NCBI RefSeq assembly: GCF_025061645.1
Contig: NZ_JANYMP010000036.1
Coordinates: forward strand, 28,447 to 89,256
Length of the DNA stretch: 60,810 nt
Direction of reading: 5' to 3'
From: Umezawaea endophytica
GTDB lineage: Bacteria; Actinomycetota; Actinomycetes; Mycobacteriales; Pseudonocardiaceae
Shown here: positions 11,091-26,265 of the stretch, in pieces
Position numbering within the stretch: the first letter of the stretch is position 1
Layout of the letters: each line of letters opens with the position of its first letter
Notes under the pieces: generated by a model
The model's input: only the letters and a program-made list of their open reading frames with translations
Databases searched by the model: none
What the model was told of the DNA's origin: nothing
Position numbers and translations under genes: made by a program

Positions 11091-11509
11091 GCGGGAACGG
11101 GCCGAATCCGGGCGACGTGGCGATCGTGCTGCGGATGATGGAGACCTTCGACCTGCGCCTCGAGGACCTCGTGGCGGGCGCGGTGGCGCGGGTTGTGCCG
11201 ACGTTTGCGGAGGTGGATCCGCTGGTGCGGGAGTGGGTGCCGGGCCCGTCGCGGCGGATCTACGGCACCTACTGGGACCGGATCGTCACGTGGTGGGGGG
11301 AGCGGCGGCTGGACGAGCCGACGGTGGTGGAGGTGCAGGAGTTGATCGAGCACGTGCGGGAGACCGCGGTGGTGCGGCGGTCGAGCAACGGCGGCAAGGG
11401 CGCGGCGCTGCACGCCTATTACGCGTTGGCGTGCGTGTATCGCTACGCCGTGGAGGTGGACATCCTCACGGCACGGCAGACCCTCCGACGATGCCACCAG
11501 GCCCAGTGA
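11087..11509 (+). pseudogene. Tyrosine recombinase, N-terminal core-binding part only
   Basis: 140 residues starting at GTG 11087, overlapping the previous stop by GTGA. The helical SAM-like core-binding region of phage-type integrases is visible (TYWDRIVTWWGERRLDEPT; GAALHAYYALACVYRYAVE). The frame stops where relatives continue into the catalytic R-H-R-Y domain; none of those residues is present. It is therefore a truncated recombinase, or a DNA-binding relic that retains only the core-binding part. The piece following it is the start of an unrelated SARP-type gene in the opposite direction. Confidence 0.6.
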
Positions 11510-11580
11510 CACCACCCCCCCGGATCATGGGTTCGACTGGGGGCGTCAGTCATGCCGGACCTGGCGACCACGACTCCTTG

Positions 11581-11676
11581 TCAGGAGCCACGAAAACGGT
11601 AACGGGGGCCGAGGTTCACCGCCCGCCCGTCGACCCGCACGGTCACCTCGCCGAGCAGACCGAACTTCACCCCCAT
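11581..11676 (-). pseudogene. N-terminal remnant of a SARP/BTAD regulator
   Basis: An ATG at 11676 opens a 31-codon frame reading MGVKFGLLGEVTVRVDGRAV, then NLGPRYRFRGS and a stop. The first 24 residues match the conserved opening strand pair of AfsR/SARP regulators (FGLLG-V-VRVDGR-VDLG); the rest of the domain is missing. Too short to be certain. Confidence 0.4.
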
Positions 11677-12482
11677 GGCCGACTCCCTACCCATCCATGG
11701 ATAGCGGTTTGACCTGCGTGATGCAGGAATCTGGCAACCAGTTCACACGATCGGCCGTCCACTCTTCTCATCGAGGCGGGAAGCACGACCACCCGCTTGT
11801 CACATCGGATCCAAGGGCGTAATGCCTGAGTTCCAACGGGAAGGCGGTAGGACGAGGACCAAGACTGGCAGGCTGCGCCTGCGGCGACGTCATTCGACGT
11901 CGTGGCTGCGGCCTGCACCTACGAGGCCGTCCGGAACTCCGTCGTCAGAAGCTGCTCGGCACACAGCACCCGGTGGTGCCGACCAAGACCACGGGTCAGT
12001 ACATGACCGGACCGGCCCCTGCGGGCTGGTTCACCTGGACCAACTCAACGGGGCCGCGTCAGGGTCACCGCTGTCGGCGCGGCCATGTTCGTGATCACCA
12101 ACGCTGCAAGCTACGTACCACCACCGAAAAAATCGGTGGGTCGAAAGGCCTGACAGTGGTCAGCGAACATCATTCACCATTATCTCATCTTCACGAGGGG
12201 TGCTCTGGTGAATCGATCTTCAGTCGATCACCAATAAGATCATTTTAGTCAAGTTTTTGGTGTTAATAATTCAGTAGCTATGGCGACTTTTAAGTTTTCC
12301 GATGAGCGCAGCGCTGATGCTGACGCCAGCCGAAGTGAAGAACCGTCAACTCGCACATGCTCGCGGGGCTGATCAATTACCTGAATGATCAGTGCCGGGT
12401 AAACTCGGCTGATCGCCTGGTGTTTCCGGTAAGAATCGACGGGCACCCGTCGGGGTGTCTCCATATAGTTTCCAGGGAGCCT
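11677..12482. other. Intergenic region, AT-rich toward the right
   Basis: No convincing gene in 11677-12150. From about 12150 to 12420 the DNA is markedly AT-rich. It contains an inverted repeat CTGATCA-N10-TGATCAG (12369-12392) and probably the promoter of the I36-like gene. Confidence 0.45.
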
Positions 12483-12995
12483 ATGATGAATGGATCAAGG
12501 AAAAACCGCACATGGAGTGCATTTGCCCTGATCGTGGCGCTTGGCGCGGCGCTGCTCGCCGGTGCTCCGGCATGGGCAACGGGCATGACTTCGCCGGAGA
12601 TCGCCATGTCCCACAACGGAGTGGGGCAGTCAAGCGGCCCATTCGCCGCTCCGAGGAGTTTCGTCGCGGGGTTGGGCTGGAACGCCTGCTCACCCGGAGA
12701 ATTGTGTCTGTTCGTAGAAGTCGACGGTGGAGGAGGGGGGTTCGCCTGGGCTGCCAACGGGGCCACCAGTGACTTCCGGACTCTTGTGTGCCGATCCGGT
12801 CAAGGCTGCTATCCTGGAACCTTCGACAACGAGGCAAGTTCGTGGTGGAACCGTACTGGCCAGACCTTCTGCGTCTCGGATGGCTACAACGGCGGAAATC
12901 CCGACAACACCATGCCGCCCGGCACTCGGGGCAACTTCACCACCACCGGCTGGAACGACCGTCCGTCGTCGCTCGGATACCTGGGTTGCCCCTAG
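12483..12995 (+). CDS. Secreted peptidase-inhibitor-like protein (family I36 type)
   Basis: 170 residues with a classical Sec signal peptide (basic start, hydrophobic FALIVALGAALLAGAPAWA, cleavage near residue 33). The mature part has a cysteine pair around CSPGELCLFVEVDGGG, the typical opening of I36-type inhibitors (C--GELC-Y----GG), followed by CRSGQGCYPG, FCVSDGYNGG and YLGCP, giving a small disulfide-bonded fold. AGGGAGC precedes the ATG pair at 12483/12486. It is monocistronic and ends 98 bp before a strong terminator. Likely an extracellular protease inhibitor; the inhibitory activity is inferred from family resemblance. Confidence 0.75.
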   Translation: MMNGSRKNRTWSAFALIVALGAALLAGAPAWATGMTSPEIAMSHNGVGQSSGPFAAPRSFVAGLGWNACSPGELCLFVEVDGGGGGFAWAANGATSDFRTLVCRSGQGCYPGTFDNEASSWWNRTGQTFCVSDGYNGGNPDNTMPPGTRGNFTTTGWNDRPSSLGYLGCP

Positions 12996-13093
12996 GTCCA
13001 ATACCAGTGACTTAAGGGTTGCTGTCCGTTCGTCTGACGGACGCGGGTACAGGAGTCGACGGCGCGATCGGCAAGGATCAATCCCGAAAGCCA

Positions 13094-13124
13094 GGGGTCT
13101 CGGTGCATCACGCACCGAGACCCC
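13094..13124 (+). terminator. Rho-independent terminator after the I36-like gene
   Basis: GGGGTCTCGGTGC and its perfect complement enclose a 5-nt loop (ATCAC), followed by TTCGTG. The 13-bp GC-rich stem is the normal actinobacterial style, lacking a long U-run. Confidence 0.75.
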
Positions 13125-13417
13125 TTCGTGATGAGGAGGCGATTTCGCTGACCTCCCTCGAAGACTGCGAAACGTGAGCACGAAGCCCCAGTCGGTCTAA
13201 CCCGAGGGGCAGGCAGCGGAGATGCTGGCGGCCGGGTCCACTGCGCCTGGTATCGAGATCGAGCCGTTACTCCGGTCATCCGCCACCATCGAGATCGACA
13301 CCCGGAAACTACTCGCCGAAGTGATGGACCAACCGGCGGCGCTCGCCGGTCCACCGCCATCCCGTCGCTGGCCGTTCAGATCACGCTATGCGGCTGTCGT
13401 ACCAGTAGGGCTTTGTT

Positions 13418-13612
13418 AGGTTCGCCGCCCAGTTCCTTCGCGACGCCGAGGAGAACGGCGACTAGTTCGACCCAGACGAGGCCCGTCGCAAGGCCGTGCG
13501 CCTGCTCAGCGAAATGGTCGGCGCACTGATGCTCTCCCGAGCCGTGCACCACGTCGAGCCCGAACTCTCCGACGAGATCCTGCGGGCCAGCCACAGCAAC
13601 GCTGTCGACTGA
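13418..13612 (+). pseudogene. C-terminal remnant of a TetR-family regulator
   Basis: The frame reads RFAAQFLRDAEENGD, a TAG stop at 13463, then FDPDEARRKAVRLLSEMVGA LMLSRAVHHV and ...LSDEILRASHSNAVD before TGA. The RKAVRLLSEMVGALMLSRAV stretch is the typical last helix pair of TetR ligand domains. The DNA-binding domain is absent, and one in-frame nonsense codon interrupts what is left. Confidence 0.55.
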
Positions 13613-13686
13613 GCACTCGGGAGTAGCCGCAGGACCTCTGCGTCCAGGGCGTGGGTGAGCTTCTGTCGTGCTTGCCTGGTCGTGAT

Positions 13687-13738
13687 CGCAAAATCCACGT
13701 CGTCGGGTACGGCGCAAAATCCACGTCGTCGGGTACGG
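13687..13738. repeat. Tandem duplication of a 26-bp unit
   Basis: Two exact adjacent copies of a 26-bp sequence beginning CGCAAAATCCACGTCGTCGG. It lies next to the IS3-type transposase tail and may be a slipped or duplicated IS end. Confidence 0.85.
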
Positions 13739-13797
13739 CGGCGTCACGACAGCGGTTCCGGTCCTGTGAGGTTGTCCCCGAAGTCCAGACACCAGAC

Positions 13798-13965
13798 TTA
13801 TGACACGAGGGCGAGACCTCGACGATGGCCAACGCGGACTTCGTGCGGGGTGCGGTAGTCGAGTGTCGAATGTAGACGGTCGTGGTTGTAGTAACCAAGG
13901 TAGGCGAAAACGTCCCGCCGGGCGTCCTCCGGGGTGTCCCAAACGGTTGTGCCGATCTCGAGATC
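13798..13965 (-). pseudogene. C-terminal piece of an IS3-family OrfB transposase
   Basis: Reading leftwards the frame gives TTVWDTPEDARRDVFAYLGY, YNHDRLHSTLDYRTPHEVRV and a TAA at 13798. This is the canonical IS3 OrfB ending (R---F-YI--YN--RLHS-L-Y-TP-E). Only the last 55 residues survive, joined directly to the N-terminal part of an IS481-like transposase. Confidence 0.7.
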
Positions 13966-13977
13966 TGGCCGCGTGGC

Positions 13978-14364
13978 GGCGCGCGAGCAGGTTTCGGTGC
14001 CAGCGCAGCACCGTTTCCGGACGTACTGGCAGTTGAAGCTGACGATGGGCTGTCAGGGGGAGCCGGTGCAGCAGTGCCGCGAGGAACATTCGATCGGCGG
14101 GGAAGAGCCGTAGTTGAGTCTTGCCCAGTTGGCGTTCCAGGACGGTGATCTGGTGCCGTAGCACCAGGATCTCCACGTCCTTGTCGCGGTCGCTCATGTG
14201 CAGCAGGCGCAGTAGGGCGAACGCGTTGGTCACGTTCAGGTAGGCCAGCCGAAGCAGCATGGCTGGTCATCATGCCTGCTTATCGGCAGCAGCGTGATCA
14301 CGACTGCATCCGCGCATGGGTCTCTGTGAACCCTCTGCCACCTGCATGGATGAGGTTTTCAGCA
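13978..14364 (-). mobile_element. Left part of an IS481-like element, copy 1
   Basis: The transposase starts at ATG 14260 (MLLRLAYLNVTNAFALLRLL, then ILVLRHQITVLERQLGK, ETVLRWHRNLLARRHAA) and breaks near 13978, where it runs into an IS3 tail. The terminal sequence at 14344-14364 (reading leftwards TGCTGAAAACCTCATCCATG) matches the end of the copy at 28893. The two copies share about 93% identity by eye over 14133-14271. The right end of this copy is lost. Confidence 0.7.
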
Positions 14365-14486
14365 GGTACAACGCTGGGGAGGGGCGCGATTCCTGGCCTT
14401 GGCGATGTGCGCGGGGTTGCACCTTCCGCAGCGGCATGTGGTCCAGTGGACCCACATCCCGATCCTCCAAGGAAAGGTCCCCGCTC

Positions 14487-15389
14487 GTGCACCCGTCCTT
14501 CATGCCACCCCGCCAGGTCAAGATCGGTGACGCGGCGGCCTTCGCCGGCAGCACGCCGCGGGCGATTCGCCACTACCACGAGATCGGCCTGCTCCCCGAG
14601 CCCGAGCGGGGCGGTGACGACCGCCGCCGCTACGGGTACGAGGACATGATCCGCCTGCTCTGGATTCGCAAGATGGCCGACGCCGGGATCGCCCTGGGCG
14701 ACATCCGTGACGCCTTCACCACCGGCACGGCTCCCGACGGCGCGGACAGCGAAGACGGCATCACGGGAACCCTGAAGCGGTTGGAGGAAAACCTCGCCGA
14801 GCAGGAGGCGGAAGTGCGGCGGCAACGGACCGCCGTGCGGCGGATGCGCGCCGAAGGCAGCCGGATGGGCCTGCTCTCCGACTTCGTCACCCAACGCCTC
14901 ACCGGCCTGCCCGAAGGCTCCCTGCGCCAAGCGGACCTGGACACCCTGCTGGTCACCGAGCGGATGCTCGGCCCGCTCGGCGCGGCCTTCCAAGCCACCC
15001 GCTTCATCGCCCTTGCCACGCATCCCGCTCTGCGGGCGGAATCCGACCGCATCGACGGCGCCGAGGCGGCACTCGACGACAGCGTCGCCGTCGACGATCC
15101 ACGGGTGGCTCACGTGGCCGCCGAGCGGCACGCCTTCGAGAACACCCTGATGGCCGTCATCGAGGAGACCGGCCTGGACAAGGACGACGATGCCCTCCTC
15201 GACGCCTGGGACACCCTGCACCCCGCTACCGCCGATGATGAGGCGGACCTCGGCTCTTGCAGGCGGGAAGCTGGTTCCATGAGCTTGGCCGAAGCCAATA
15301 GCAAGATGCCCTACGACTTCTCTCCGGCCCGCCAGCGCTGCGTGGAACTGTACTTCGAGCTGCTCGCCCAAGACTCACTCACTACCTAA
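14487..15389 (+). CDS. MerR-family regulator with long helical C-terminal domain
   Basis: 300 residues. An N-terminal MerR helix-turn-helix (KIGDAAAFAGSTPRAIRHYH, EIGLLPEPERGGDDRRRYGY) is followed by a dimerisation helix (LKRLEENLAEQEAEVRRQRT) and a 150-residue helical domain that probably binds an effector; no metal-binding cysteines are in the usual place. I chose GTG 14487 because GGAAAGG lies 9 nt upstream; ATG 14502 is the alternative. The longer frame from 14316 overlaps the end of the IS element and is not protein-like. It lies just downstream of the IS copy-1 end, which could supply a promoter. Targets are unknown. Confidence 0.85.
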   Translation: MHPSFMPPRQVKIGDAAAFAGSTPRAIRHYHEIGLLPEPERGGDDRRRYGYEDMIRLLWIRKMADAGIALGDIRDAFTTGTAPDGADSEDGITGTLKRLEENLAEQEAEVRRQRTAVRRMRAEGSRMGLLSDFVTQRLTGLPEGSLRQADLDTLLVTERMLGPLGAAFQATRFIALATHPALRAESDRIDGAEAALDDSVAVDDPRVAHVAAERHAFENTLMAVIEETGLDKDDDALLDAWDTLHPATADDEADLGSCRREAGSMSLAEANSKMPYDFSPARQRCVELYFELLAQDSLTT

Positions 15390-15419
15390 AACACAGTCTG
15401 AGCTTGTCGTTCAAGCAGT

Positions 15420-15922
15420 TCAGCGTGGTTTGGCGCCCTTCTTGTGATTGGCCGGTCGTGTGTGGGCCTGCTCGGTGGCCAGGACGAGTCCGGCGTCGAA
15501 GCCTTGCGCGACAACACGATTCCTCGAACCGAGTGGGCGACCTGGTCCAGTCGGATGGGTTTTGGTGTCGTTGTCAGACGTGCGGTCTTCGTGTGGATGT
15601 TGCGGAACCCGCGCCGGCCTCGTGCCGGGGTCAACCTGGCCGGTTCGGTGGGGCGTTCCCACGGACGTGGCGTTGACACCGGAGCACCACAACCAGACCG
15701 GTTTGTTCACCCTGCCGCTGGGCAGGTGTCCGACCCGCAGCAGGAGAACGGTGCCCTCGATGATCGGCAGTGGTCCCGCGTGGTTGGCCCAGGCACAGCG
15801 GCTGGTCAGTCTGGGGTGCGGGCGGTTCCAGGCCTGGACGGTCGCCGTCCCGTAGCGGCGGGTATCGGTGCTGGTCACTACGTGTTCCTCGCCCCAGGTG
15901 GCGGGGTCGCCGAAGGCGGACG
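15420..15922 (-). pseudogene. Internally deleted transposase remnant
   Basis: Reading leftwards: RWPSAFGDPATWGEEHVVTS, ...YGTATVQAWNRPHPRLT, PLPIIEGTVLLLRVGHLPSG and KPVWLWCSG. The frame then jumps to RPWERPTEPARLTPARGRRG FRNIHTKTAR (another frame) and ends GPGRPLGSRNR...KGAKPR. This order matches a common actinobacterial transposase family (I believe the one NCBI labels NF041680), with its roughly 90-residue catalytic middle deleted and two frame changes. It directly adjoins the gene tail at 15920. Confidence 0.6.
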
Positions 15923-16102: not shown

Positions 16103-16403
16103 CTGGAGAATTGACCTGTGCGTCGTGGCCAGGGCAGCGGAATTCGCCTTGGTGAAGGTGCACAACTCCCTGGAGATTGTTGAGACATCCTGGCCAAGCT
16201 GGCGGCCAATCGCGCTCTCTGAGAGCTCAAGCGCACAGCAGCGCGCTGTCCTCACAGTCGACGCCTCCGACTGCTCTCTGGCAGCCTCGACGACCTCATG
16301 TCGCTGAGAACGTGGCTCACGGGGGCCGCCGAAGCGCTCAAGGTCTCCGCGTGTTCGAGTCTGCGTGGAGCAGTCCCTCGACGAACAATATCAAGGTATT
16401 GAA
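16103..16403. other. Spacer without a recognised gene
   Basis: A minus-strand frame contains a helix-turn-helix-like string (SAIGRQLGQDVSTISREL) reminiscent of IS30 transposases, but it is short and unsupported on both sides. Otherwise nothing is seen before the operator at 16404. Confidence 0.4.
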
Positions 16404-16419
16404 TGATAGGGTCGTCTCA
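16404..16419 (+). promoter_or_regulatory. Shared 16-bp operator, copy A
   Basis: TGATAGGGTCGTCTCA, 25 bp before the TTG start of the SnoaL-like gene. It has the same form TGATAG-N4-RTCTCA as copies at 17006 and 19770. The half-sites TGATAG and TGAGAC (reverse strand) make an imperfect palindrome of the sort bound by TetR dimers. Confidence 0.7.
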
Positions 16420-16443
16420 CATATCGACTTGCGGGAGGCGACC

Positions 16444-16944
16444 TTGCTGTCCGACACTCACCCCAACGCCGTGTGGCTGGCCGACATGTACCGAGGCGGC
16501 GCGGTGATCACTGCCGACTCAAGCCTCGGCGAGGACGAGCGGGTCCGGCTGCTGAACGAGCACACGGCCGAGGTGATGAAGAAGATGTCTCCGGACCTGG
16601 TGATCCACACTGGTGGCGTGCGCTTGGCGGCGACCGGTGGGATGGAGTTCCTGCGCAGGTACATGAAGCGGCGGGCGAGTCTCGCCGATGCCAGTGTCGA
16701 GCCCGTCCAGTTCGACCAGATCCTCGCGGATGACTACTACGGCATAGTCCACGGCACGTTCCGCACGTCGCGCGGTGACTGGACGTGGACTCGTGTCGGC
16801 ATGGGGGCGTGGCGCTTCAAGGACGGCCTGGCCGTTGAGCACTGGGAGCTCTCGGACGGCCCGACGTGGGACGAGTTCTTCCTCGCTGGTGATCCGGAGT
16901 CGTTCACGGGTTCAGCGCAGGAGTTCTGGACAAGCGGGTCCTGA
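16444..16944 (+). CDS. SnoaL-like / NTF2-fold protein
   Basis: 166 residues. The cone-shaped NTF2/SnoaL fold is suggested by length and by the paired motifs HPNAVWLADMYRGGAVITAD and WTRVGMGAWRFKDGLAVEHW, ending in EHWELSDGPTWDEF, the typical H-W-x-x-x-D of this superfamily. Members are small cyclases, dehydratases, isomerases or ligand-binding proteins. The start is TTG 16444 because GGGAGG sits 6 nt upstream and there is no nearby ATG in frame. A copy of the shared operator lies immediately upstream, so it is probably co-regulated with the next two units. The substrate is unknown; a second SnoaL-like gene closes the block at 26266. Confidence 0.75.
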   Translation: MLSDTHPNAVWLADMYRGGAVITADSSLGEDERVRLLNEHTAEVMKKMSPDLVIHTGGVRLAATGGMEFLRRYMKRRASLADASVEPVQFDQILADDYYGIVHGTFRTSRGDWTWTRVGMGAWRFKDGLAVEHWELSDGPTWDEFFLAGDPESFTGSAQEFWTSGS

Positions 16945-17005
16945 ACCGCCCGGCACCTGCTGGGACGCCTTGCGGTCGGACATCGGGAAGACTACGGTCG
17001 GTTAG

Positions 17006-17021
17006 TGATAGATGTGTCTCA
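17006..17021 (+). promoter_or_regulatory. Shared 16-bp operator, copy B
   Basis: TGATAGATGTGTCTCA, 21 bp before the GTG of the RraA-like gene. It matches copies A and C at 11 of 16 positions including all of TGATAG and TCTCA. Confidence 0.7.
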
Positions 17022-17041
17022 TTTGAGAATGAGGTTCTGCT

Positions 17042-17701
17042 GTGTACATAGTCGCACCGACCGACAGGGTGTCCATCGCGCCGAGTTGGCCTCGAACGCC
17101 GGCGGCGGAGATCCGTCGGCTGGGAGAAGTGGCGGCCGCGAACGTCGGCGACGCGTTGCAGCGGATGACGGTGATGGACGGCGGTATCCGGCTGCTCGCC
17201 GGGCGCGCCCCGCTGCTGGGCAACGCTCTCACGGTCGACGTCCGATCAGGGGACAACCTGGCCATTCATCGTGCGCTCGACGACGCCGCGCCTGGTGACG
17301 TCCTGGTCGTCAACGGACACGGTGACCTGACCCGTGCGCTCGTCGGCGACCTGATCGGCGAGATCATGGTGAATGGTGGTGTTGTCGGCGCTGTGATCGA
17401 CGGCGCGGTTCGCGACGTTCAGTCGCTCTCGGAGATGGGGCTGGTCGTATACGCGCGGGCGGTCACCCCCGCGGGTCCCTTCAAGGATGGTCCCGGCTCC
17501 ATCGGTGGGCCGGTTGCGGTCGGCGGCGTCGTGGTGGAAGCGGGCGACGTGCTCGTCGGCGACGCGGACGGCGTCGTGGTCGTCCCGCGGCATCGGGTGC
17601 GGGAGGTCGTCGACGCGGTCGACGGGATCGGCGAGAAGGAAAGGGTGCTCCGGCAACGCATCCTCGCTGCCCGCACAGACGCCGCCGAGGTGACTCGATG
17701 A
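17042..17701 (+). CDS. RraA-like / HMG-CHA aldolase family protein
   Basis: 219 residues, the usual length for the RraA fold. Diagnostic features are GDALQRMTVMDGGIRLLAGR near 36-55, GDLTRALVGDLIGEIMVNGG (94-113) and VVGAVIDGAVRD (114-125), which supplies the conserved Arg124 and Asp125 of class II pyruvate aldolases such as 4-hydroxy-4-methyl-2-oxoglutarate aldolase. True RraA proteins (RNase E inhibitors) are unlikely here because it is co-transcribed with an aminotransferase. GTG 17042 has GAGG 8 nt upstream. The stop overlaps the next ATG (ATGA). Likely an aldolase or decarboxylase of a 2-oxo acid; the substrate is unknown. Confidence 0.8.
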   Translation: MYIVAPTDRVSIAPSWPRTPAAEIRRLGEVAAANVGDALQRMTVMDGGIRLLAGRAPLLGNALTVDVRSGDNLAIHRALDDAAPGDVLVVNGHGDLTRALVGDLIGEIMVNGGVVGAVIDGAVRDVQSLSEMGLVVYARAVTPAGPFKDGPGSIGGPVAVGGVVVEAGDVLVGDADGVVVVPRHRVREVVDAVDGIGEKERVLRQRILAARTDAAEVTR

Positions 17702-18846
17702 TCGCTGCGGCGCCGGCCCTTCGCATTGACGAACTGCTCTGCTCCTCGCGGCGCCCCACGCTCACACCTGCTCCGCCAGGCACCATCTCCCTGGCGATGG
17801 GCGAGCCGGACTTCCCTACGGCGCCGGAAGTGGTCGAGGCCGCGGTCGCGGCTCTGCGTGCCGGAGACACCCACTACGCAGACCAGAAAGGCTTGCCGGA
17901 ACTGCGGGCCGCGGTCGCGCTCCGGTTGCCCGAGCGCCCCGGCAGGGCATGGGGCCCGGACGACATTCTGGTCACCCACGGTGCTACCGGGGCCTTGACG
18001 GCCGTTGTGCTCGCGATGATCGGTCCCGGTGACCGCGTGGTCATCCCGGAACCGGCCTACTCGTTGTACGCGGACCTGGTCGTCCTGGCCGGGGGCACCG
18101 TGGACTTCGTCCCGCTCGGCCCGGACCTGCACTGGGACCTCGACGTGCTGGCGGCCGCGCTGCCCGGTGCCAAGATGATGATCTTCTCGAACCCGTCGAA
18201 CCCCACTGGCGTCGTGCATGACGCGCATGAGCTCAAGGCCCTCGGAGACCTCCTCGACGGCTCGAACGTCCTGGTCGTCAGCGACGAGGCGTACCACCGC
18301 CTCGTCTATCCGGGATACGAGGCGATCTCGGCCCTTGCGATCGAGTCGTTGCGAGATCGGACGGTCCACGTGCAGACCTTCTCCAAGACGTATGCGATGA
18401 CAGGCTGGAGAGTGGGTTACCTGACGGGCCCGCGGGACGTGGTCGACGCGGCGGCTCACGCGCACCGCACCCTCAACGGATCCGTGAACACGGCGGTCCA
18501 ACGAGCTGCCGTTGCGGCACTCGACCTTCCGGACGGCATCGTCGGCGCCATGGTCGACACGTACCGGCGGCGCCGTGAGCTGGTGGTCTCACGCTTGTCG
18601 GGCGTTCCCGGCCTGCACCTGGTTCCGCCGGAGGGCGCGTTCTACGGGTTCCTGCGGTACGACGCCGCACGTCCGTCCGAAGAGGTCGTCCGTGAACTCG
18701 CCGAGCAGAAGGTGTTGGTCCGGGCCGGCGCGGAATACGGCCCCTCCGGGGAGGGGCACATCAGGATTTCGTTCGCGGCCTCCGAGGACGACCTGCTGGC
18801 CGGACTGGATCGCATCGTCGCCCACCTCGGCGGCGCGAGTTCCTGA
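17698..18846 (+). CDS. Pyridoxal-phosphate aminotransferase, class I/II
   Basis: 382 residues of fold type I, aspartate-aminotransferase-like (subgroup I gamma). Visible elements: MGEPDF (34-39), the cofactor loop HGATGAL (94-100), NPSNPTG (165-171), D196 and Y199 in SDEAYH, the Schiff-base lysine K230 in FSKTYAMTGWRVGY, and a C-terminal substrate arginine in HIRISFA. It overlaps the RraA-like gene by 4 nt (ATGA), so they are translationally coupled. The pairing suggests transamination feeding a keto acid to the aldolase, or the reverse. Amino donor and substrate are unknown. Confidence 0.9.
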   Translation: MIAAAPALRIDELLCSSRRPTLTPAPPGTISLAMGEPDFPTAPEVVEAAVAALRAGDTHYADQKGLPELRAAVALRLPERPGRAWGPDDILVTHGATGALTAVVLAMIGPGDRVVIPEPAYSLYADLVVLAGGTVDFVPLGPDLHWDLDVLAAALPGAKMMIFSNPSNPTGVVHDAHELKALGDLLDGSNVLVVSDEAYHRLVYPGYEAISALAIESLRDRTVHVQTFSKTYAMTGWRVGYLTGPRDVVDAAAHAHRTLNGSVNTAVQRAAVAALDLPDGIVGAMVDTYRRRRELVVSRLSGVPGLHLVPPEGAFYGFLRYDAARPSEEVVRELAEQKVLVRAGAEYGPSGEGHIRISFAASEDDLLAGLDRIVAHLGGASS

Positions 18847-18952
18847 CGGGGAGGAATCGTGCGCCGTCGCACCGCGCATCTCCGAGCGGTGACATGCGCC
18901 GTGATCAGAGACGGTACCCTTGGCCTGCAGTTCTACGAGGTAGGGGAGGCCC

Positions 18953-19570
18953 GTGTCCGATCAGCAGCCCGCCTCGCGTGGGGGGCGCAAGTTGCGCAGT
19001 GACACTCGCCGCAACCTCCGCCGTCTCCTCGAAGCCGTCGGTGAGCTCGCCAGGGAGGCGCCCGACGAGCTCACCATGCAGGCGGTCGCCTCTCGTGCGG
19101 AGATCGGCCCGGCCACCGCCTACCGCTACTTCTCCTCGATGGAGGACGTGCTCGCGGCGTACGTGCTCAGTGTCGTCGAAGAGCTCAGCGACTTCACCGC
19201 GGAGTCGACCGCGCAGGGCAGGCCGCTCTTCGACGCCGTCGTGGACAAGTGGGTGGATCTTCTCGCGCGGCACGGCCCGGCACTGGTCCGACTCCGGTCG
19301 CGGCGGGGCTACCTGGAGCGGCTGCACGACGGCAACGAGATCATCGCCGCCATGCGGGACGCTTGGAGCGAGCCCGTTCGGGGTCTGCTGGATGACATCG
19401 GTCTTCCGCACGATCTGCTCGAGGACGCGTTGTTCCTCAACAACATGATCTTCGATCCGCGTGAGATCCAGGACCTGCTGCAGGCGAGGGGCCTGTCCCG
19501 ACGTGAGGTCATCATCCGGCTGACCGAGGCGTACTGCGGTGCGCTACGCGGATGGGCGCGCGTCGGCTGA
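18953..19570 (+). CDS. TetR-family repressor, candidate regulator of the 16.4-26.8 kb block
   Basis: 205 residues. The TetR helix-turn-helix spans about 18-65 (LTMQAVASRAEIGPATAYRY, FSSMEDVLAAYV), followed by an all-helical ligand domain. The gene follows the aminotransferase by 106 bp and is probably in the same transcript. Because one operator copy precedes that transcript and two more precede neighbouring units, this protein is the simplest candidate for binding TGATAG-N4-RTCTCA, including its own promoter. GTG 18953 has GGGGAGG about 5 nt upstream (18941-18947). Confidence 0.85.
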   Translation: MSDQQPASRGGRKLRSDTRRNLRRLLEAVGELAREAPDELTMQAVASRAEIGPATAYRYFSSMEDVLAAYVLSVVEELSDFTAESTAQGRPLFDAVVDKWVDLLARHGPALVRLRSRRGYLERLHDGNEIIAAMRDAWSEPVRGLLDDIGLPHDLLEDALFLNNMIFDPREIQDLLQARGLSRREVIIRLTEAYCGALRGWARVG

Positions 19571-19769
19571 TCCAGTGATGTTCGTGCCGGGCAGCGACTT
19601 CGTCGTTCTCCTGGAAGAGCTTTGAGCGCGAACTCTCCTGTCTGATGTAGACGGTCGAGGTCGTGGCGGCTGCCTGTGCGGTCGCCCGTCAACTTGTTCT
19701 GTGAACACCTCATGTCCGCTCGTCCTTGATGTCGACCCGCGGGTGGGTCGTCCTAACGTGGCGGTAATA

Positions 19770-19785
19770 TGATAGAGTCATCTCA
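19770..19785 (+). promoter_or_regulatory. Shared 16-bp operator, copy C
   Basis: TGATAGAGTCATCTCA, 36 bp before a short leader frame and 100 bp before the DUF3500 gene. It overlaps a TATGAT hexamer (19769-19774) that could be a -10 box. The surrounding 19571-19821 holds no other feature. Confidence 0.7.
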
Positions 19786-19821
19786 AATCATACAAGAGTG
19801 TCATTCAAGAGAGGAGTTGAG

Positions 19822-19893
19822 GTGGCACTGAGAGAGGAAGAGCCGAAACCGCCTCTGGCAAGGCGACCGCTCCGGCTTGGTTGTGATGGCTGA
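19822..19893 (+). CDS. Possible 23-residue leader peptide
   Basis: GAGGAG lies 5 nt before GTG 19822, which opens a 23-codon frame (MALREEEPKPPLARRPLRLG then CDG) ending in TGA at 19891-19893, overlapping the start of the DUF3500 frame. The DUF3500 ATG at 19886 has no visible ribosome binding site of its own, so the leader could couple translation to it. No similarity is recognised. Confidence 0.35.
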   Translation: MALREEEPKPPLARRPLRLGCDG

Positions 19894-21001
19894 CCCCGCC
19901 CGCGAGGTCGCGACGCGGATGGCGGAGGCAGCCGAGGCTTGGCTCGGGTCTTTGGATCCCGTGCAGCGCGCGGTGGCCATCGGGCCGGCACCGGGTGTCG
20001 GCGACGAGGGCGAACGGACCCGCTGGTTCTACACGCCCACCGACCACGGCGGTCTGACCTTCCACCAGCAGAACCCCGCCCAGCACCGGTTGGTGATGCG
20101 AGTCGTCGCGAGTGGACTGTCCGAAGCGGGCTACAACACCGTGGCCACCGTGCTCGGCTTGGAGAACGTGCTCGACCGCGTCGAGGGCTTCTCGGTCGAC
20201 TGGGAACGAGAACGCACCCGTGACCCTGGTATGTACTACCTGCGGGTCTTCGGTGAACCCGGTGACCGGCAGCCTTGGGGCTGGCGGTTCGGCGGCCACC
20301 ACGTGTCACTCAACAACCTCGTGGTGGACGGGCGGGTCGTCTCCACCACGCCGTGTTTCCTCGGTGCCGACCCGGCCAGCTCACCGCTCCTGGGCTTCGC
20401 GGCACTGCGCCCGTTGGGAACCGCGGAGGACTTGGCACGCGACCTGGTCCGCTCCCTGACGCCCGGCCTCGCCGGCCGCGCGGTACTGCTGTCCCGTTCC
20501 CCCAACGACGTCGTGGCAGGTAACAGCACGAAGGTCGAGGACCGCGTGGTGAAGCGCAGCGAGCTGTGGCGCCGTGGTCCGTATGTCCCGGAACGGGCCG
20601 ACCAGCCGGCCACCGGTCTTGACGGTGCGGACCGGCGCGCACTCGCTCTCACCCCGGCCCCTCGTGGAGTACCGGGCGGTGAGCTCGACTTCGCCCAGCG
20701 GGAACTGTTGAAGGCCTTGCTGAGCACCTATCTCGACCGCGTACCGGAGGGGGTGTCCCCGCTCGCCCGGTACGACGACCCGGCTGCGCTGGACGCCGTG
20801 CACTTCGCCTGGGCAGGCTCGACCACGGCGGGCGAACCGCACTACTACCGCCTGCAAGGCCCGCGACTGCTGGTCGAGTGGACCAACGTCCACCGCGGTG
20901 CCAACCACGCGCACGCCGTGTGGCGGGACCCGGAGACGGATTTCGGCGGCGACGTCCTGGCCGCTCACCACGCTGCGCACCACGTACGAAGTGCCCTTTG
21001 A
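19886..21001 (+). CDS. DUF3500-family protein
   Basis: 371 residues covering the whole DUF3500 family pattern. GWRFGGHHVSLNNLVVDGRV followed by TPCFLGADPA matches the central signature. HYYRLQGPRLLVEWTN...GANHAHAVWRDPETDFGGDVL matches the C-terminal one, and its conserved His/Asn/Asp residues look like a metal or catalytic site. DUF3500 proteins have no established function known to me. Here it is the first gene of a six-gene run, 16 bp ahead of a gamma-glutamyltransferase. That makes a hydrolytic or amide-processing role plausible, but this is inference. No signal peptide is seen, so it is probably cytoplasmic. Confidence 0.85.
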   Translation: MADPAREVATRMAEAAEAWLGSLDPVQRAVAIGPAPGVGDEGERTRWFYTPTDHGGLTFHQQNPAQHRLVMRVVASGLSEAGYNTVATVLGLENVLDRVEGFSVDWERERTRDPGMYYLRVFGEPGDRQPWGWRFGGHHVSLNNLVVDGRVVSTTPCFLGADPASSPLLGFAALRPLGTAEDLARDLVRSLTPGLAGRAVLLSRSPNDVVAGNSTKVEDRVVKRSELWRRGPYVPERADQPATGLDGADRRALALTPAPRGVPGGELDFAQRELLKALLSTYLDRVPEGVSPLARYDDPAALDAVHFAWAGSTTAGEPHYYRLQGPRLLVEWTNVHRGANHAHAVWRDPETDFGGDVLAAHHAAHHVRSAL

Positions 21002-21017
21002 ACGGAGTTCCACGTAC

Positions 21018-22829
21018 ATGGCCGGCTCACGACCCCTAACGACCGACGCTCCGCCACACACCACGCGTCCTACGCTCCGCGGATCTTTCGGCATGTGTGC
21101 GTCGACGCACTGGCTGGCTTCCGCGACGGCCCAGTCCGTCCTGGAACGAGGCGGCAACGCGTTCGACGCCGCCACGGCAGGCGCCTTCGTGCTGCACGTC
21201 GCCGAACCCCACCTCAACGGACCCGGCGGGGATCTCGTCGCCGTGCTCGCCACCGCGGCGGACACGTCACCGTTCGTGCTGGCTGGGCAGGGACACGCTC
21301 CGCGAGGTGCCACGATCGAGCACTTCCTGGGTGAAGGGCTCGACCACGTTCCGGGTGCCGGTGCCCTGGCCGCCGCTGTTCCCGGTGCGGTCGACTCCTG
21401 GCTGTGGCTGCTCGCCGAGCTGGGCACCTGGGAGCTCTCGGACGTCCTCGCCTACGCGATCGGCTACGCGGAGCGCGGAGTCCCGGTCGCGCCCCAGTTG
21501 GCACGAGTCCTGGCCACGGTCGAGGGCCTCTTCCGCGAGCACTGGCCGACGTCCTACGCGCTGTGGATGCCGGAAGGCCGCGTTCCGCAGCCGTACACCA
21601 CCCTGGTGAACGCCACCTACGCCCGGACCCTGCACAGGCTGGCCGCTGCCGGAACCGGCGCCACGCGGACGGCACGGATCCACTCCGCGCGCGATACCTG
21701 GAGAACGGGGTTCGTCGCTGCGGCGGTAGCCGAGTTCGCGGCGGTACCGCACCGGCACTCCTCCGGTGGCGACCACGCCGGGGTGATCACCGCGGCCGAC
21801 TTCGCGGACTTCGCCCCGGTGCTGGAGCCCGCGGTCACCGCGCAGTTCCGGCGGACGACGGTGGCCAAAGCGGGCCTGTGGTCCCAAGGCCCCGTTCTGC
21901 TGCAAGCCCTCACCTTGCTCGACCACTTCGACGACGAGCAGATCAACCCGTCGACAGCGCTCGGAATCCACACGATCACCGAGGCCGTGAAGCTCGCCAT
22001 GGCGGACAGGGAGGCTTACTACGGACACCTGGCTCCGGAAGACGCGGAGTCCGTTGTGCGCCGCCTGCTGTCACCCCGGTACAGCAAGGAGCGCGCACAT
22101 CTGATCGGTGAAGTCGCGTCGACCGAGTTCAGGCCTGGCGACATCGGCATCGCGCCGTACACACCTCCACTTCTTCCCCGGCGACCGGCCCACCAGGCGG
22201 CCGGTGTCGGGGAACCCACTGTGCAGCAGACGGGGGAGACCAGAGGCGACACGTGCCACATCGACGTCGTCGACCGATGGGGGAACATCATCTCGGCCAC
22301 CCCGTCGGGAGGATGGCTCCAGTCGTCCCCCGCTGTGCCGGAGCTCGGTTTCTCGCTGGGCACCCGACTCCAGATGGCTTGGCTCGACCCCGCGGCTCCG
22401 TCACGCCTGGCGCCGGGGAAAAGGCCTCGCACGACGCTCAGCCCGACCTTGCTGCTGCGCGACGGCACTCCGGTGGCGGCACTGGGGACACCGGGTGGCG
22501 ACCAGCAGGACCAGTGGCAACTGCAGTACCTGGTGCGCACGCTCGCGTTGGGTCTCGCTCCGCAGGAAGCGATCGACGCCCCTGCGTTCCACACCACCGC
22601 GGTGGTGAGCTCCTTCTGGCCACGCACCTGGGCGCCGGGCGGACTGGTCGTCGAGGACCGAGTGGGCGACGCGGTCATCGCCGAACTGGCGGAACGAGGC
22701 CACGAGGTAACCGTCTCAGGACCGTGGAGCCAGGGGCGGCTGTCGGTCGTCACGCGTGATCCCGGCACCGGTGTCCTCCAAGCGGCGGCGAACCCACGCG
22801 GTGCCCAGGGATACGCGGTGGGACGATGA
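21018..22829 (+). CDS. Gamma-glutamyltransferase family protein (Ntn hydrolase)
   Basis: 603 residues, full length for the family. The N-terminal part carries ERGGNAFDAATAGAFVLHVA and NGPGGDL. The autocatalytic cleavage site is GDTCHIDVVDRWGN, where Thr412 would become the N-terminal nucleophile of the small subunit. A distal GTPGGDQQDQWQLQ loop is the second signature. No signal peptide is visible, unlike periplasmic Ggt, so it acts inside the cell, as YwrD-type members do. Substrates of the family are gamma-glutamyl amides; some members are cephalosporin acylases. GGAG lies 10 nt before ATG 21018. The next gene overlaps by ATGA. Confidence 0.85.
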   Translation: MAGSRPLTTDAPPHTTRPTLRGSFGMCASTHWLASATAQSVLERGGNAFDAATAGAFVLHVAEPHLNGPGGDLVAVLATAADTSPFVLAGQGHAPRGATIEHFLGEGLDHVPGAGALAAAVPGAVDSWLWLLAELGTWELSDVLAYAIGYAERGVPVAPQLARVLATVEGLFREHWPTSYALWMPEGRVPQPYTTLVNATYARTLHRLAAAGTGATRTARIHSARDTWRTGFVAAAVAEFAAVPHRHSSGGDHAGVITAADFADFAPVLEPAVTAQFRRTTVAKAGLWSQGPVLLQALTLLDHFDDEQINPSTALGIHTITEAVKLAMADREAYYGHLAPEDAESVVRRLLSPRYSKERAHLIGEVASTEFRPGDIGIAPYTPPLLPRRPAHQAAGVGEPTVQQTGETRGDTCHIDVVDRWGNIISATPSGGWLQSSPAVPELGFSLGTRLQMAWLDPAAPSRLAPGKRPRTTLSPTLLLRDGTPVAALGTPGGDQQDQWQLQYLVRTLALGLAPQEAIDAPAFHTTAVVSSFWPRTWAPGGLVVEDRVGDAVIAELAERGHEVTVSGPWSQGRLSVVTRDPGTGVLQAAANPRGAQGYAVGR

Positions 22830-23530
22830 CGGGCGTCGTGAGCGCCGCCGGTCGACGCGTGCGATGGCGTTCGACTCCGGTGCACCTCCTGCTCGCCCTC
22901 ACCTTCGCGACGGGTGTCGTCGACGCCGTCGGTTACCTACGCCTGGACCAGGTGTTCGCGGGCAACATGACGGGCAACGTGGTCATCCTCGGCATGGCTG
23001 CCGTGGGAGGCGCTGGCCTGCCAGTGCTCGGTCCGGCGGTGGCGCTGCTGTCGTTCCTCATCGGAGCCGCCGTAGCCGGACGGGTGCTGCGGCGGACCGC
23101 CGCGCCGGGGTGGAACCACCTGCACACCGGCCTGTTGGCCGGCGTCGGCCTGCTTCTGGCCACCACCGCGCTCGGCATGGCGGCCACAGGGATCGGCACC
23201 ACCACCTTCCGCACGGTGATGGCCTTGTCGCTCGCACTGGCCATGGGAGTGCAAGCAGCAACGGCCCGTCACCTCGCCGTGAAGGACATCACCACCGTCG
23301 TCGTCACCTCCACGCTGACCGGCCTCGCGGCGGACTCCCGGCTCGGATCCGCCCGCGGCCAGGGGGCGAAGCGGCGCATCGCGGTCGTCGTGCTCATCGT
23401 CGCCGGCGCGGTCGCCGGTGCCGCGTTGTGCCAGGTCCACGAAGGACTCGCCGTCGCGATCGCGGCGTTCACCGTGCTGACCGTGACTGCTGTTGGCCAC
23501 AAACAGGTCCACAACACCCCGCACGAGTAG
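22826..23530 (+). CDS. DUF1275 (YoaK-like) membrane protein
   Basis: 234 residues with about six hydrophobic segments. The family signatures are ALTFATGVVDAVGYLRLDQV, FAGNMTGNVVILGMA and MGVQAATARHLAVKDITTVV followed by VTSTLTGLAADS. The family is a small inner-membrane group of unknown transport or regulatory role. It overlaps the gamma-glutamyltransferase stop by ATGA and precedes an MFS pump, so it probably contributes to uptake or export of the pathway compound. Confidence 0.85.
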   Translation: MTGVVSAAGRRVRWRSTPVHLLLALTFATGVVDAVGYLRLDQVFAGNMTGNVVILGMAAVGGAGLPVLGPAVALLSFLIGAAVAGRVLRRTAAPGWNHLHTGLLAGVGLLLATTALGMAATGIGTTTFRTVMALSLALAMGVQAATARHLAVKDITTVVVTSTLTGLAADSRLGSARGQGAKRRIAVVVLIVAGAVAGAALCQVHEGLAVAIAAFTVLTVTAVGHKQVHNTPHE

Positions 23531-23612: not shown

Positions 23613-25013
23613 ATGACCACAGCTGTGCCCCCTCCGGTCACCGTCGGAAGAACCGCCTTGGGAGCGCTGGGGCTGCTCGCGCTCGCCACTGGCGCTCTGG
23701 AGTCGGTGGTGACGCCGACTCTGCCCCTCCTGCAGCGCGAACTCGGCATGAGCCCGTCCGAAGGCGCGCTGCTCAGCATCGTCCTCCTCATCACGGGCGC
23801 ACTCGTCACCCCGATCGCAGGCAAGTTCGGCGATCGCTATGGCGGAAAACCGGTTCTGATCAAGCTGATGTCCGTCGTCTCCGTCGGCGGCCTGGTGTCC
23901 GCCCTCGCTCCCAACCTGCCCGTGCTGCTCTTCGGACAGGTGCTGCAGGGCGCGATGGTGGGGGCGCTGCCGCTGTCGTTCATCATCGTGCGCAAGCACC
24001 TGACCGAAGGCGAGTCGAAGGTCGCCATCGGAGTCGTCAGCGGGCTGTTCGTCGGCGGTGGGATGGTGGGGACGCTGTCCGCCGGGCCCGTGGCCGAACA
24101 GCTATCGCGGCACTGGATGTTCGCGCTGCCCACGATCGTCGTCATCGGTGCGACCGTGGCGACGAACCGGCTGATGCCGCACGACCCCCCTGGCCGCGCG
24201 GACGACAACGGCGGAGTCGACTGGCCCGGCTTCGCCCTGCTGAGCGGCACGCTGGTCACGTTGATGCTCGTGCTCATGCTGGCACCGGACCTCGCCTCCG
24301 AGCCGCTCGCGCTCGTCGCCCTGGTCCTTCTCCTGGTCGCCCTCGCGGCGGGCTGGGTGTTCGTCGAACGCCGGGCAACCTCGCCGATGGTCGACCTGCG
24401 CATGCTCGCTCTGCCCGCGATGTGGAAGTCGTGCCTGCTGACGTTCGTGATCTGCGTCGGGACCGCCGGTGCGGTCTACCTGGTACCGCAACTGTTCGCG
24501 GCATCCGGTGACGGGTACGGGTTCGGAGCGGGCGCCACCCTGATCGGGCTCTACCTGCTTCCCGGTGCTGTGGCCGCGTCGCTGGCCGGGCCGATCGGCG
24601 GTCTCGGTGCTCGGCGTTTCGGCTCGCGTGCCGTCGTCACCACCGGTGTGGTCTTGATGGCGGTCTCCCTGCTCGCCGTGGCCGCCGTGCACACCGAGGT
24701 CTGGCACCTCGTCGTCGGCAAAGCGGTGATCGCGCTCGCCAACGGTCTGTGCGTGACCGCGATGGTGACCAGCACCGCGACCTCCGTCGACCAAGGTGAC
24801 ACCGGCATCGCCACCGGTCTGGTCCTCGTCACGCGCGTGCTCGGCTTCGCCGTGGGTGTGCAGGTCAGCGGTGCGATCCTCACCGCGGGAATCCCCGCCG
24901 GCTCGGACGTTCCGGCCGAATCGGCCTTCATCACCGGTTTCGTCGTCGCCGGCGTCGTCACGGCGCTGGCCCTGCTGGTCACCCGCACCATGCGCAAAGG
25001 AGTCACGGAATGA
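23613..25013 (+). CDS. MFS transporter (DHA2-like)
   Basis: 466 residues with 12-14 hydrophobic helices. Motif A-like GKFGDRYGGKPV is at about 70-81 between TM2 and TM3, and GLFVGGGMVGTLSAGP is the antiporter motif C region in TM5. It is probably a proton-driven exporter of a small organic molecule. Its stop overlaps the ATG of the flavoprotein monooxygenase (ATGA), which argues that transporter and enzyme handle the same compound. AAAGGA precedes ATG 23613. Confidence 0.9.
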   Translation: MTTAVPPPVTVGRTALGALGLLALATGALESVVTPTLPLLQRELGMSPSEGALLSIVLLITGALVTPIAGKFGDRYGGKPVLIKLMSVVSVGGLVSALAPNLPVLLFGQVLQGAMVGALPLSFIIVRKHLTEGESKVAIGVVSGLFVGGGMVGTLSAGPVAEQLSRHWMFALPTIVVIGATVATNRLMPHDPPGRADDNGGVDWPGFALLSGTLVTLMLVLMLAPDLASEPLALVALVLLLVALAAGWVFVERRATSPMVDLRMLALPAMWKSCLLTFVICVGTAGAVYLVPQLFAASGDGYGFGAGATLIGLYLLPGAVAASLAGPIGGLGARRFGSRAVVTTGVVLMAVSLLAVAAVHTEVWHLVVGKAVIALANGLCVTAMVTSTATSVDQGDTGIATGLVLVTRVLGFAVGVQVSGAILTAGIPAGSDVPAESAFITGFVVAGVVTALALLVTRTMRKGVTE

Positions 25014-26227
25014 CCCGCACGAATCGAGCGGCCTCTCCCGCTGCCGGCAGGCGCAAGGTCCTGATCTCCGGCGCCAGCGTCGCAGGTCCGGTCCTCGCGT
25101 TCTGGCTCCACCGCTACGGCTACGAGGTCACGGTGGTCGAGAAGGCCGGCGCGCCACGCAACGGCGGCTATCCCATCGACATCCGCGGCACCGCACTCGA
25201 AGTCGTGCGCAGGATGGGAATCCTGCCCCGGCTGAAGGACGCGCACATCGAACTGCGCCGATTGACCTTCCTCCAAGGCGGCGGCGACGAGGTGGCTTCG
25301 CTGCATCCCCACGCCATCACCGGCGGTGTGGAAGGGCGTGATCTGGAGGTGCGCCGCGGAGATCTCACGGCGGCGCTGTACTCGACCGTCCGGGACGACG
25401 TGGAGTTCGTCTTCGACGACTCGATCAGCACGATGGACCAACACGAATACGGGGTCGACATAACGTTCCACGGCGGCGAAGCCCGTTCGTTCGACGTGGT
25501 GCTCGGTGCGGACGGCACGCACTCGCGAACCAGGGAGATGGTGTTCGGTCCGGAAGAGCGGTTCCGCCACTACCTGGGCTACTGCTTCGCCGTCTTCACC
25601 ATGCGCAACACCTTGGGGCTGTCCCACGAGACCGTCATGTGGAACAGCCCGGGTCGGGCCGCGGCGCTCTACGCCGTCGGGGAAGACGACGAGGTGCACG
25701 CGTTCCTGAACGTCGCACTGCCGGATCCGCCGGACCGCGCGTTCGGCGACATCGAGGCTCAGCGAACCCTGCTCACCACCGCTTTTCGCGATGTCGGCTG
25801 GGAAGTCCCCACGATGCTCGCCGCGCTGCGGGAGTCGGACGACCTGTACTTCGACGCCGTGAGCCAGATCCGCATGCCAAGGTGGTCAAGCGGAAGAGTC
25901 GCACTGGCCGGCGACGCCGCGTACGCGCCCTCGTTCCTGACCGGCCAGGGCACCAGCCTCGCACTCGTCGGCGCCTACATGCTCGCCGGCTCCCTCAAAG
26001 GCCGTTACCACAACGAAGGCTTCGCCGCCTACGAGCACGACACCCGCAACTTCGTTGACCTGAACCAAGGACTCGTCGGTACTGGGGGCGCCACTCTCTT
26101 CCCCGTCACCGCCGAGGCACTGGAGCAGCGCAACACCAGGCTGCGCAACCTCACCGCCATGCCTGCGAGGGAAGGCCGACCTGCGCACTCGGCGCTCACG
26201 CTGCCCGAGTTCTCGCTCGCGACCTGA
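25010..26227 (+). CDS. FAD-dependent monooxygenase (PHBH/TetX-like class A)
   Basis: 405 residues. The N-terminal FAD-binding Rossmann motif is KVLISGASVAGPVLAFWLHR (16-35), with the acidic end of the second strand in VVEK. The middle DG-type motif is VLGADGTHSRTREM, and the C-terminal GD motif is RVALAGDAAYAPSFLTGQGT. Class A flavin monooxygenases hydroxylate aromatic or polyketide-like substrates, or inactivate antibiotics as TetX does, using NAD(P)H. It is translationally coupled to the MFS gene. A decayed paralogue lies convergently downstream at 26793-27670. Confidence 0.9.
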   Translation: MTRTNRAASPAAGRRKVLISGASVAGPVLAFWLHRYGYEVTVVEKAGAPRNGGYPIDIRGTALEVVRRMGILPRLKDAHIELRRLTFLQGGGDEVASLHPHAITGGVEGRDLEVRRGDLTAALYSTVRDDVEFVFDDSISTMDQHEYGVDITFHGGEARSFDVVLGADGTHSRTREMVFGPEERFRHYLGYCFAVFTMRNTLGLSHETVMWNSPGRAAALYAVGEDDEVHAFLNVALPDPPDRAFGDIEAQRTLLTTAFRDVGWEVPTMLAALRESDDLYFDAVSQIRMPRWSSGRVALAGDAAYAPSFLTGQGTSLALVGAYMLAGSLKGRYHNEGFAAYEHDTRNFVDLNQGLVGTGGATLFPVTAEALEQRNTRLRNLTAMPAREGRPAHSALTLPEFSLAT

Positions 26228-26265
26228 CCCGCGGGTCGTCCGTGTCCCCCACGAGGTTCGCCAAG

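Follow-up and report, generated by a model that had tools for sequence, protein, structure and literature searches.

Regulators of the TetR family occupy operators of two size classes: 22-32 bp where a dimer of dimers binds, as with QacR, CgmR, Ms6564 and CprB, and 15-17 bp where a single dimer binds (PMC4150764, in excerpt). An element of this general kind was analyzed in a 60,810-nt stretch of Umezawaea endophytica contig NZ_JANYMP010000036.1. This whole stretch is referred to as the window, and coordinates are positions in it unless a locus is named. The element, TGATAG-N4-RTCTCA, precedes three neighboring units and is very probably the operator of the TetR-family regulator encoded at 18953-19570 (tetR), which would repress the three units until released by a small molecule of their pathway. 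Across genomes the site is linked to this TetR lineage and to the same genes, so that a three-unit TetR regulon is strongly supported. As far as sequence comparison can tell, the well-supported reading is a local regulon under a TetR repressor, governing an accessory pathway that is uncharacterised.

Unit 1 is a gene for a SnoaL-like protein (snoaL1). Unit 2 comprises genes for an RraA-like aldolase (rraA) and an aminotransferase (AT), followed by tetR. Unit 3 holds genes for a DUF3500 protein, a gamma-glutamyltranspeptidase (gamma-GT) homolog (ggt), a DUF1275 protein, a transporter (mfs), a monooxygenase (fmo) and a second SnoaL-like protein (snoaL2). The three 16-mers were found by pattern scan of the window at 16404, 17006 and 19770, all with zero mismatches, exactly where the initial annotation had placed a 16-bp element. 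They end 24 bp before the TTG at 16444, 20 bp before the GTG at 17042 and 36 bp before the GTG at 19822; their placement just upstream of the start codons was thus borne out, and the earlier range of 21-36 bp is replaced by these values. The 16 bp themselves proved to be only the core of a conserved element of about 30 bp. All three operators were annotated on the plus strand: operator 1 at 16397-16426 (core 16404-16419, TGATAGGGTCGTCTCA), operator 2 at 16999-17028 (core 17006-17021, TGATAGATGTGTCTCA), with a TT-TGAGA outer half-site following the core, and operator 3 at 19763-19792 (core 19770-19785, TGATAGAGTCATCTCA), followed by AA-TCATA.

A scan of the 11.02-Mb genome returned the exact motif three times, all within these 3.4 kb. 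The symmetric form TGAKA-N6-TMTCA was present at four places, against none for a reversed-pattern control; the fourth, TGAGAGAGCGCTCTCA, has a family-5 solute-binding-protein gene on one side and a LacI-family gene on the other, and is probably an operator of the LacI type. When two mismatches were permitted, the window gave 5 matches against 2.8 expected, which is uninformative, and the genome gave 87 rows, fewer than the 121 of the reversed-pattern control. Since such loose matches are at background level, genome-wide statements were based on exact matches only. One-mismatch matches occurred at four other places of the genome, and none was counted as a site. One of them (L007) overlaps the start of an unrelated TetR gene. 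Another, TGATTGGATCATCTCA (L004:1501-1516, at C20:65214), stands 21 bp upstream of what is likely the ATG of a Beta-lactamase2-family gene; it lacks the A at position 5 that is present in 42 of 42 sites and has no outer half-site, and might at most be a weak target of the TetR protein. The remaining two (L005, L006) were inspected as sequence.

Related loci were collected by scanning species genomes with the TetR protein, which yielded 16 loci at 80-91% identity in Lentzea, Saccharothrix, Prauserella, Kibdelosporangium, Nonomuraea, Thermocatellispora, Pseudosporangium, Jidongwangia, Paractinoplanes, Streptomyces and Kitasatospora. Among 248 other genomes drawn from the family, a TetR relative of at least 78% identity was found in four and one of 64% in one, which indicates that the cluster is sporadic. 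Locus L077 (= G083, TetR 78%) and an Embleya plasmid record (L093, 79.5%) were added to the sample. Genes were counted as present when at least 80% of the query was covered at 55% identity or more; the counts are lower bounds, as the 10-kb flank truncates some loci. In the 16 loci, tetR was present in 16, rraA and AT in 15 each, DUF3500 in 14, mfs in 12, ggt and DUF1275 in 11 each, fmo in 10, an alpha/beta-hydrolase gene in 8 and snoaL1 in 7.

Sites were scored at ten core positions within 200 bp upstream of each gene, or within 350 bp for the stretch following tetR, in loci other than the window. A site of at least 9/10 preceded snoaL1 in 8 of 8 loci and rraA in 15 of 16 (16 of 16 at 8/10), and it was present after tetR in 14 of 16, so that the motif also stands before orthologous genes of relatives, a point raised by the initial annotation. 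The two misses after tetR are L037, where the DUF3500 unit has been relocated, and the decayed locus L044. L041 was assigned outside the post-tetR set, its site lying further downstream, at 12166. Genes serving as controls gave no site at this threshold (AT 0/16, tetR 0/17, mfs 0/12, fmo 0/11, ggt 0/12; total 0/68), with a single match at 8/10 in the mfs set, and shuffled upstream stretches predicted 0.01-0.15 sites per set.

Rearranged loci were informative. In L037 and L046, rraA and AT are located away from tetR and still carry the site, while the gene ahead of tetR is an operator-bearing snoaL1. In L077, snoaL1 is found at the far end of the cluster, with a 9/10 site starting 43 bp before it. 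Judged from these arrangements, the site moves together with its genes in rearranged clusters; it is also tied to this TetR lineage. Two further sites were noted in the added loci: a 9/10 site after snoaL1 at the cluster end (L077:17815), with no gene identified downstream, and a perfect core, TGATATAGTCGTATCA, after fmo in the Embleya record (L093:19069), which lies ahead of an open frame and is a possible further target.

The link was followed into more distant TetR relatives. At 64% identity (L078), a one-mismatch site precedes a run of symporter, rraA, AT and tetR genes. At about 52% (L079, L080), rraA and AT adjoin tetR, and TTAGA-N6-TCTCA starts 35 bp before rraA. At 45% (L083), AT is kept with two one-mismatch variants upstream. 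Beside this AT-tetR pair, and facing a site variant, L083 also holds at 11113-15607 a LamB/YcsF and carboxyltransferase set, which we take to be 5-oxoprolinase-like, an RraA-like gene and a transporter. In seven fetched loci with TetR identities of 44-49% and no rraA or AT match (L081, L082, L084-L088), no site was found near tetR; in L088 a one-mismatch match lies about 5.5 kb away. The recognition-helix stretch GPATAYRYF/Y is constant in close orthologs, and the siteless clade has SQATAYRHF. TGATA-N6-TCTCA was searched in 26 genomes, of which 13 had matches: all five with a TetR relative of at least 78% (own genome included) and 8 of the 21 others, with one to three scattered matches each, so that a single match is of little value. 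A stricter 23-bp pattern matched in only one of 249 family genomes, that of U. endophytica; it misses true sites in relatives and is not evidence of absence.

Operator anatomy was derived from 42 hand-picked sites, one per gene and including those of the window, with the three gene classes weighted equally. Information was high at positions 1-5 and 12-16, and also at 17-23 (T19 98%, A21 86%, A23 75%) and at -1 and -2. The best symmetry center is 8.5 (score 17.3), with symmetry spanning -6 to 23, that is, 30 bp. The observed flank symmetry score was reached by 5 of 5000 column permutations. The inner half-sites are TGAKA/TMTCA, and the outer ones TNAKA and its complement. The rough palindromy seen earlier in the half-sites is thus a two-fold symmetry that extends into the flanks.

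A predicted sigma-70 type promoter of unit 2 was located at 16970-16998 on the plus strand (-35 TTGCGG, 17-bp spacer, -10 TACGGT), ending 7 bp before the core of operator 2. The same arrangement, a TTG-box, 17 bp (18 in L036) and TAYGRT, ends 5-9 bp before the operator core of rraA in 14 of 18 loci; the other four fall outside the promoter rule used. At this distance the operator covers the expected transcription start, the classical position for repression. TetR, probably as two dimers in a symmetric arrangement, would occupy the roughly 30-bp site with its two-fold symmetry. At unit 2, where the core follows the predicted -10 at a distance of 7 bp and lies over the expected start, bound TetR would block initiation, and units 1 and 3 would be repressed likewise. 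Release of TetR would come from a small molecule that the pathway produces or handles, whereupon the three units would switch on together. What the data show directly are the sites: how specific, conserved and symmetric they are, and that they accompany this TetR lineage. Binding, also by two dimers, repression, the ligand and the autoregulation considered below are what we infer from the arrangement of sites and genes.

Other explanations for the shared element have to be measured against these data. It might be a promoter motif for an alternative sigma factor common to the three units, given its promoter-like distance before the genes and its mostly uniform orientation. Such a motif would hardly be two-fold symmetric, with symmetry extending into the flanks and with reversed or symmetric forms such as TGAGA...TATCA (L032) and TGAGA...TCTCA (L035), and the separate sigma-70 type promoter upstream of the unit 2 operator further reduces this explanation to a very small probability. 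An operator bound by another regulator, such as the MerR protein encoded at 14316-15389 or an unlinked protein, is improbable as well. Linkage alone is no proof of which protein binds; yet the site persists where the TetR lineage adjoins AT, down to 45-64% identity, and the MerR gene, unmatched in 16 of 16 related loci, was rejected as the regulator of these sites. Similarity by chance, or a single promoter region duplicated recently, might be considered since the window holds only three sites, but the spacer and further flanks differ among the gene classes while the core and outer half-site letters are kept, and with the near-zero expectation in shuffled upstream stretches the probability of this explanation is negligible.

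The control of tetR itself is less settled than that of the three units. The initial annotation had described an autoregulated regulon, defined by sequence alone. The regulon of three units held up in the comparison of genomes; the wording was too strong in that protein-DNA binding is deduced, and autoregulation is doubtful. Starting 106 bp after AT, tetR is preceded by a conserved TANNNT (TACCCT at 18915-18920, plus strand), a candidate private -10 box without operator, which stands 37-39 bp before its GTG in 20 of 20 loci. With no operator before the gene, autoregulation would be possible only by read-through from unit 2. It is almost an even bet that tetR is transcribed solely from its own unregulated promoter, with no negative autoregulation, which would be compatible with the remainder of the TetR operator model. 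This is favored by the box and the missing operator, and by L093, where no rraA or AT match lies within 10 kb of tetR. On the other side, tetR directly follows the operator-bearing rraA-AT pair in most loci and an operator-bearing snoaL1 in L037 and L046, which makes autoregulation by read-through plausible. Transcription of tetR would thus probably proceed from a weak promoter of its own, with possible read-through from unit 2 and, by this route, possible negative autoregulation.

Sites outside the known loci were sought by exact-consensus search of 20 genomes, 16 of them ortholog-bearing; the genome of L032 was left out. The 16 ortholog-bearing genomes gave 48 exact symmetric matches (hand tally), 22 at known loci, 5 at newly found regulon genes and 21 elsewhere. 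Of the 26 off-locus matches, 14 were covered by the 12 regions fetched, and 4 of the remaining 12 are identical in their letters, on either strand, to the LacI-type place of the U. endophytica genome. Three regions contain the five new regulon sites. In L095 the Thermocatellispora genome has a second, nearly complete cluster with sites (62-82% identity for most genes, ggt lower); no close ggt was found between its DUF3500 and DUF1275 genes, and a 50% homolog lies upstream on the other strand. The first Thermocatellispora locus (L044, 10001-10603) is a decayed copy of the cluster, with tetR open and no site. L098, from the same genome, holds a lone snoaL1 (79%) with a site, and L094, from a Streptomyces genome, a lone snoaL2 (74%) with two sites upstream. 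An identical site, TGAGACCTATCTCTCA, with near-identical flanks and no cluster homologs near it, occurs in a Kitasatospora (L096:6068) and a Streptomyces genome (L097:5768), and is possibly an operator of another regulator.

Several observations speak against the assignment of the element to this TetR protein or against details of it. The 21 exact matches away from known regulon genes are numerous, although the 14 matches of the reversed-pattern control in the same genomes put them at a similar background, and 9 of the 12 fetched off-locus regions contained no cluster homolog or only matches below 37%. In L037 and L043 the cluster is present without a perfect core. The match after tetR in L046 does not precede a cluster gene, DUF3500 having its own site there at 16152. 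No operator lies within 200 bp upstream of tetR in any of 17 loci. The outer right half-site of operator 1 is weak. A second symmetry center at 17.5 scores 15.0, with half-sites recurring every 18 bp, and this competing center leaves the dimer register and half-site pairing unsettled.

The genes of the three units, all on the plus strand, were assigned by domain search. Unit 1 consists of snoaL1 (16444-16944), the start of which at TTG 16444 agrees with the beginning of the ortholog alignments; its SnoaL_2 match (E=1.1e-4, 23.1 bits) is under the curated cut-off of 27. In unit 2, rraA (17042-17701) encodes an RraA-like/HMG-type aldolase (PF03737, E=1.6e-40; aligned to the aldolase 3noj) and AT (17698-18846) a class I/II pyridoxal-phosphate aminotransferase (PF00155, E=4.6e-63). 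Downstream of operator 3 lies a short open reading frame (19822-19888). The frame itself stands, and the earlier reading of it as a leader is revised: a hydrolase gene occupies the same place in 8 of the 16 related loci, and by its sequence the frame is probably a remnant of the start of an alpha/beta-hydrolase gene. This likeness to the N-terminus was judged by eye, and the Pfam assignment of the hydrolase was made for three loci. There follow the DUF3500 gene (19886-21001; PF12006, E=2.7e-78), ggt (20898-22829; PF01019, E=1e-123; a relative of 6j3a), the true start of which is probably downstream of 20898, and genes for the DUF1275 membrane protein (22826-23530), the major facilitator superfamily transporter (mfs, 23613-25013), the FAD-dependent monooxygenase (fmo, 25010-26227; PF01494) and the second SnoaL-like protein (snoaL2, 26242-26718). 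Membership of snoaL2 in unit 3 is less certain, as no counterpart was present in the 16 related loci as fetched.

AT and the RraA-like aldolase are the genes most widely linked to the tetR lineage. The best solved relative of the latter is 4-carboxy-4-hydroxy-2-oxoadipate aldolase, and distant loci add a dicarboxylate symporter or the LamB/YcsF-carboxyltransferase set. From this combination, the substrate of the pathway, and perhaps its inducer too, could be a substituted dicarboxylic amino acid or oxo-acid. The DUF3500 protein is a relative of 9x86 ("Amc20"), and the solved sequences nearest to fmo are tetracycline destructases and 6-hydroxynicotinate 3-monooxygenase. Among actinobacteria, gamma-GT homologs with C-C bond-cleaving activity have been described (PMC5519988, in excerpt). 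Tentatively, and with the odds rather against it, the locus may represent an undescribed actinobacterial pathway spreading between lineages and marked by the TetR protein and its 30-bp operator, in which an old aldolase-AT core would sense and cleave a substituted dicarboxylic amino acid, and a module of DUF3500, gamma-GT, fmo, SnoaL-like and exporter genes would have been recruited under the same operator. In that scheme the gamma-GT homolog might split a C-C bond or free a glutamyl group. If this is true, the operator alone can be used to collect missing, unlinked pathway genes; the site is rare in these genomes and can find off-cluster genes, as with the two lone SnoaL-like genes.

In the open-access PubMed Central (PMC) library, no description of this TetR subfamily or regulon was found, nor a paper on 6J3A/6J3I, and the 10 of 73 Amc20 papers listed were unrelated; for DUF3500 nothing on this regulon was listed, the excerpt of PMC8416521 being a gene list. 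The analysis thus assigns to a TetR subfamily, for which that literature gave no description, an operator that is specific and testable, and it ties DUF3500, DUF1275, the gamma-GT homolog and SnoaL-like proteins into one co-regulated pathway in several actinobacterial lineages.

The surroundings of the cluster contain traces of mobile DNA. Two related insertion-sequence (IS) fragments on the minus strand, at 13376-14273 and 27649-28802, are 84% identical over 404 bp and flank the region from the MerR gene to fmo; an integrase core domain is encoded in 27649-28347. The flanking fragments suggest that mobile DNA brought the cluster in or moved it. Adjoining the right fragment, a broken second copy of fmo lies at 26793-27670 on the minus strand, its pieces being 64% and 49% identical to 25010-26227. 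Upstream of the cluster, a peptidase inhibitor I36 domain protein is encoded at 12357-12995.

The gene at 18953-19570 (plus strand), the proposed operator binder, was confirmed as the TetR gene of the middle unit: TetR_N scored 36.3 bits against a Pfam gathering cut-off of 24, and the AlphaFold2 model is all-helical, with ten helices and a mean predicted local distance difference test score (pLDDT) of 89.2. The Foldseek matches listed were TetR-family or regulator entries with template modeling (TM) scores of about 0.4-0.7, KstR, FadR and EthR among them. KstR, the regulator of cholesterol catabolism, is among the better TetR-family matches in both sequence and fold and shares the general TetR fold and helix-turn-helix likeness; its target genes are unrelated and its operator differs. 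Membership in the KstR equivalog (NF033703) was rejected, since the score of 22.8 bits is far below the cut-off of 280 for that family. Escherichia coli TetR shares the TetR_N domain, and the half-site letters of tetO resemble TGATAG. E. coli TetR targets one pump; here a multi-enzyme cluster would be controlled. Its tetO operator has 15 bp (PMC4150764, in excerpt) against about 30 bp here, and the half-site spacing differs. With QacR, CgmR, Ms6564 and CprB, the regulator described here has in common the TetR fold, the helix-turn-helix, a long symmetric operator and a local regulon. The target genes and operator sequences of those systems are different, and binding of two dimers is only predicted here. 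The operator length of about 30 bp falls within their dimer-of-dimers range of 22-32 bp (PMC4150764, in excerpt), and by this analogy it resembles the two-dimer rather than the single-dimer class. Taken as a local TetR regulon, the switch is of the ordinary kind.

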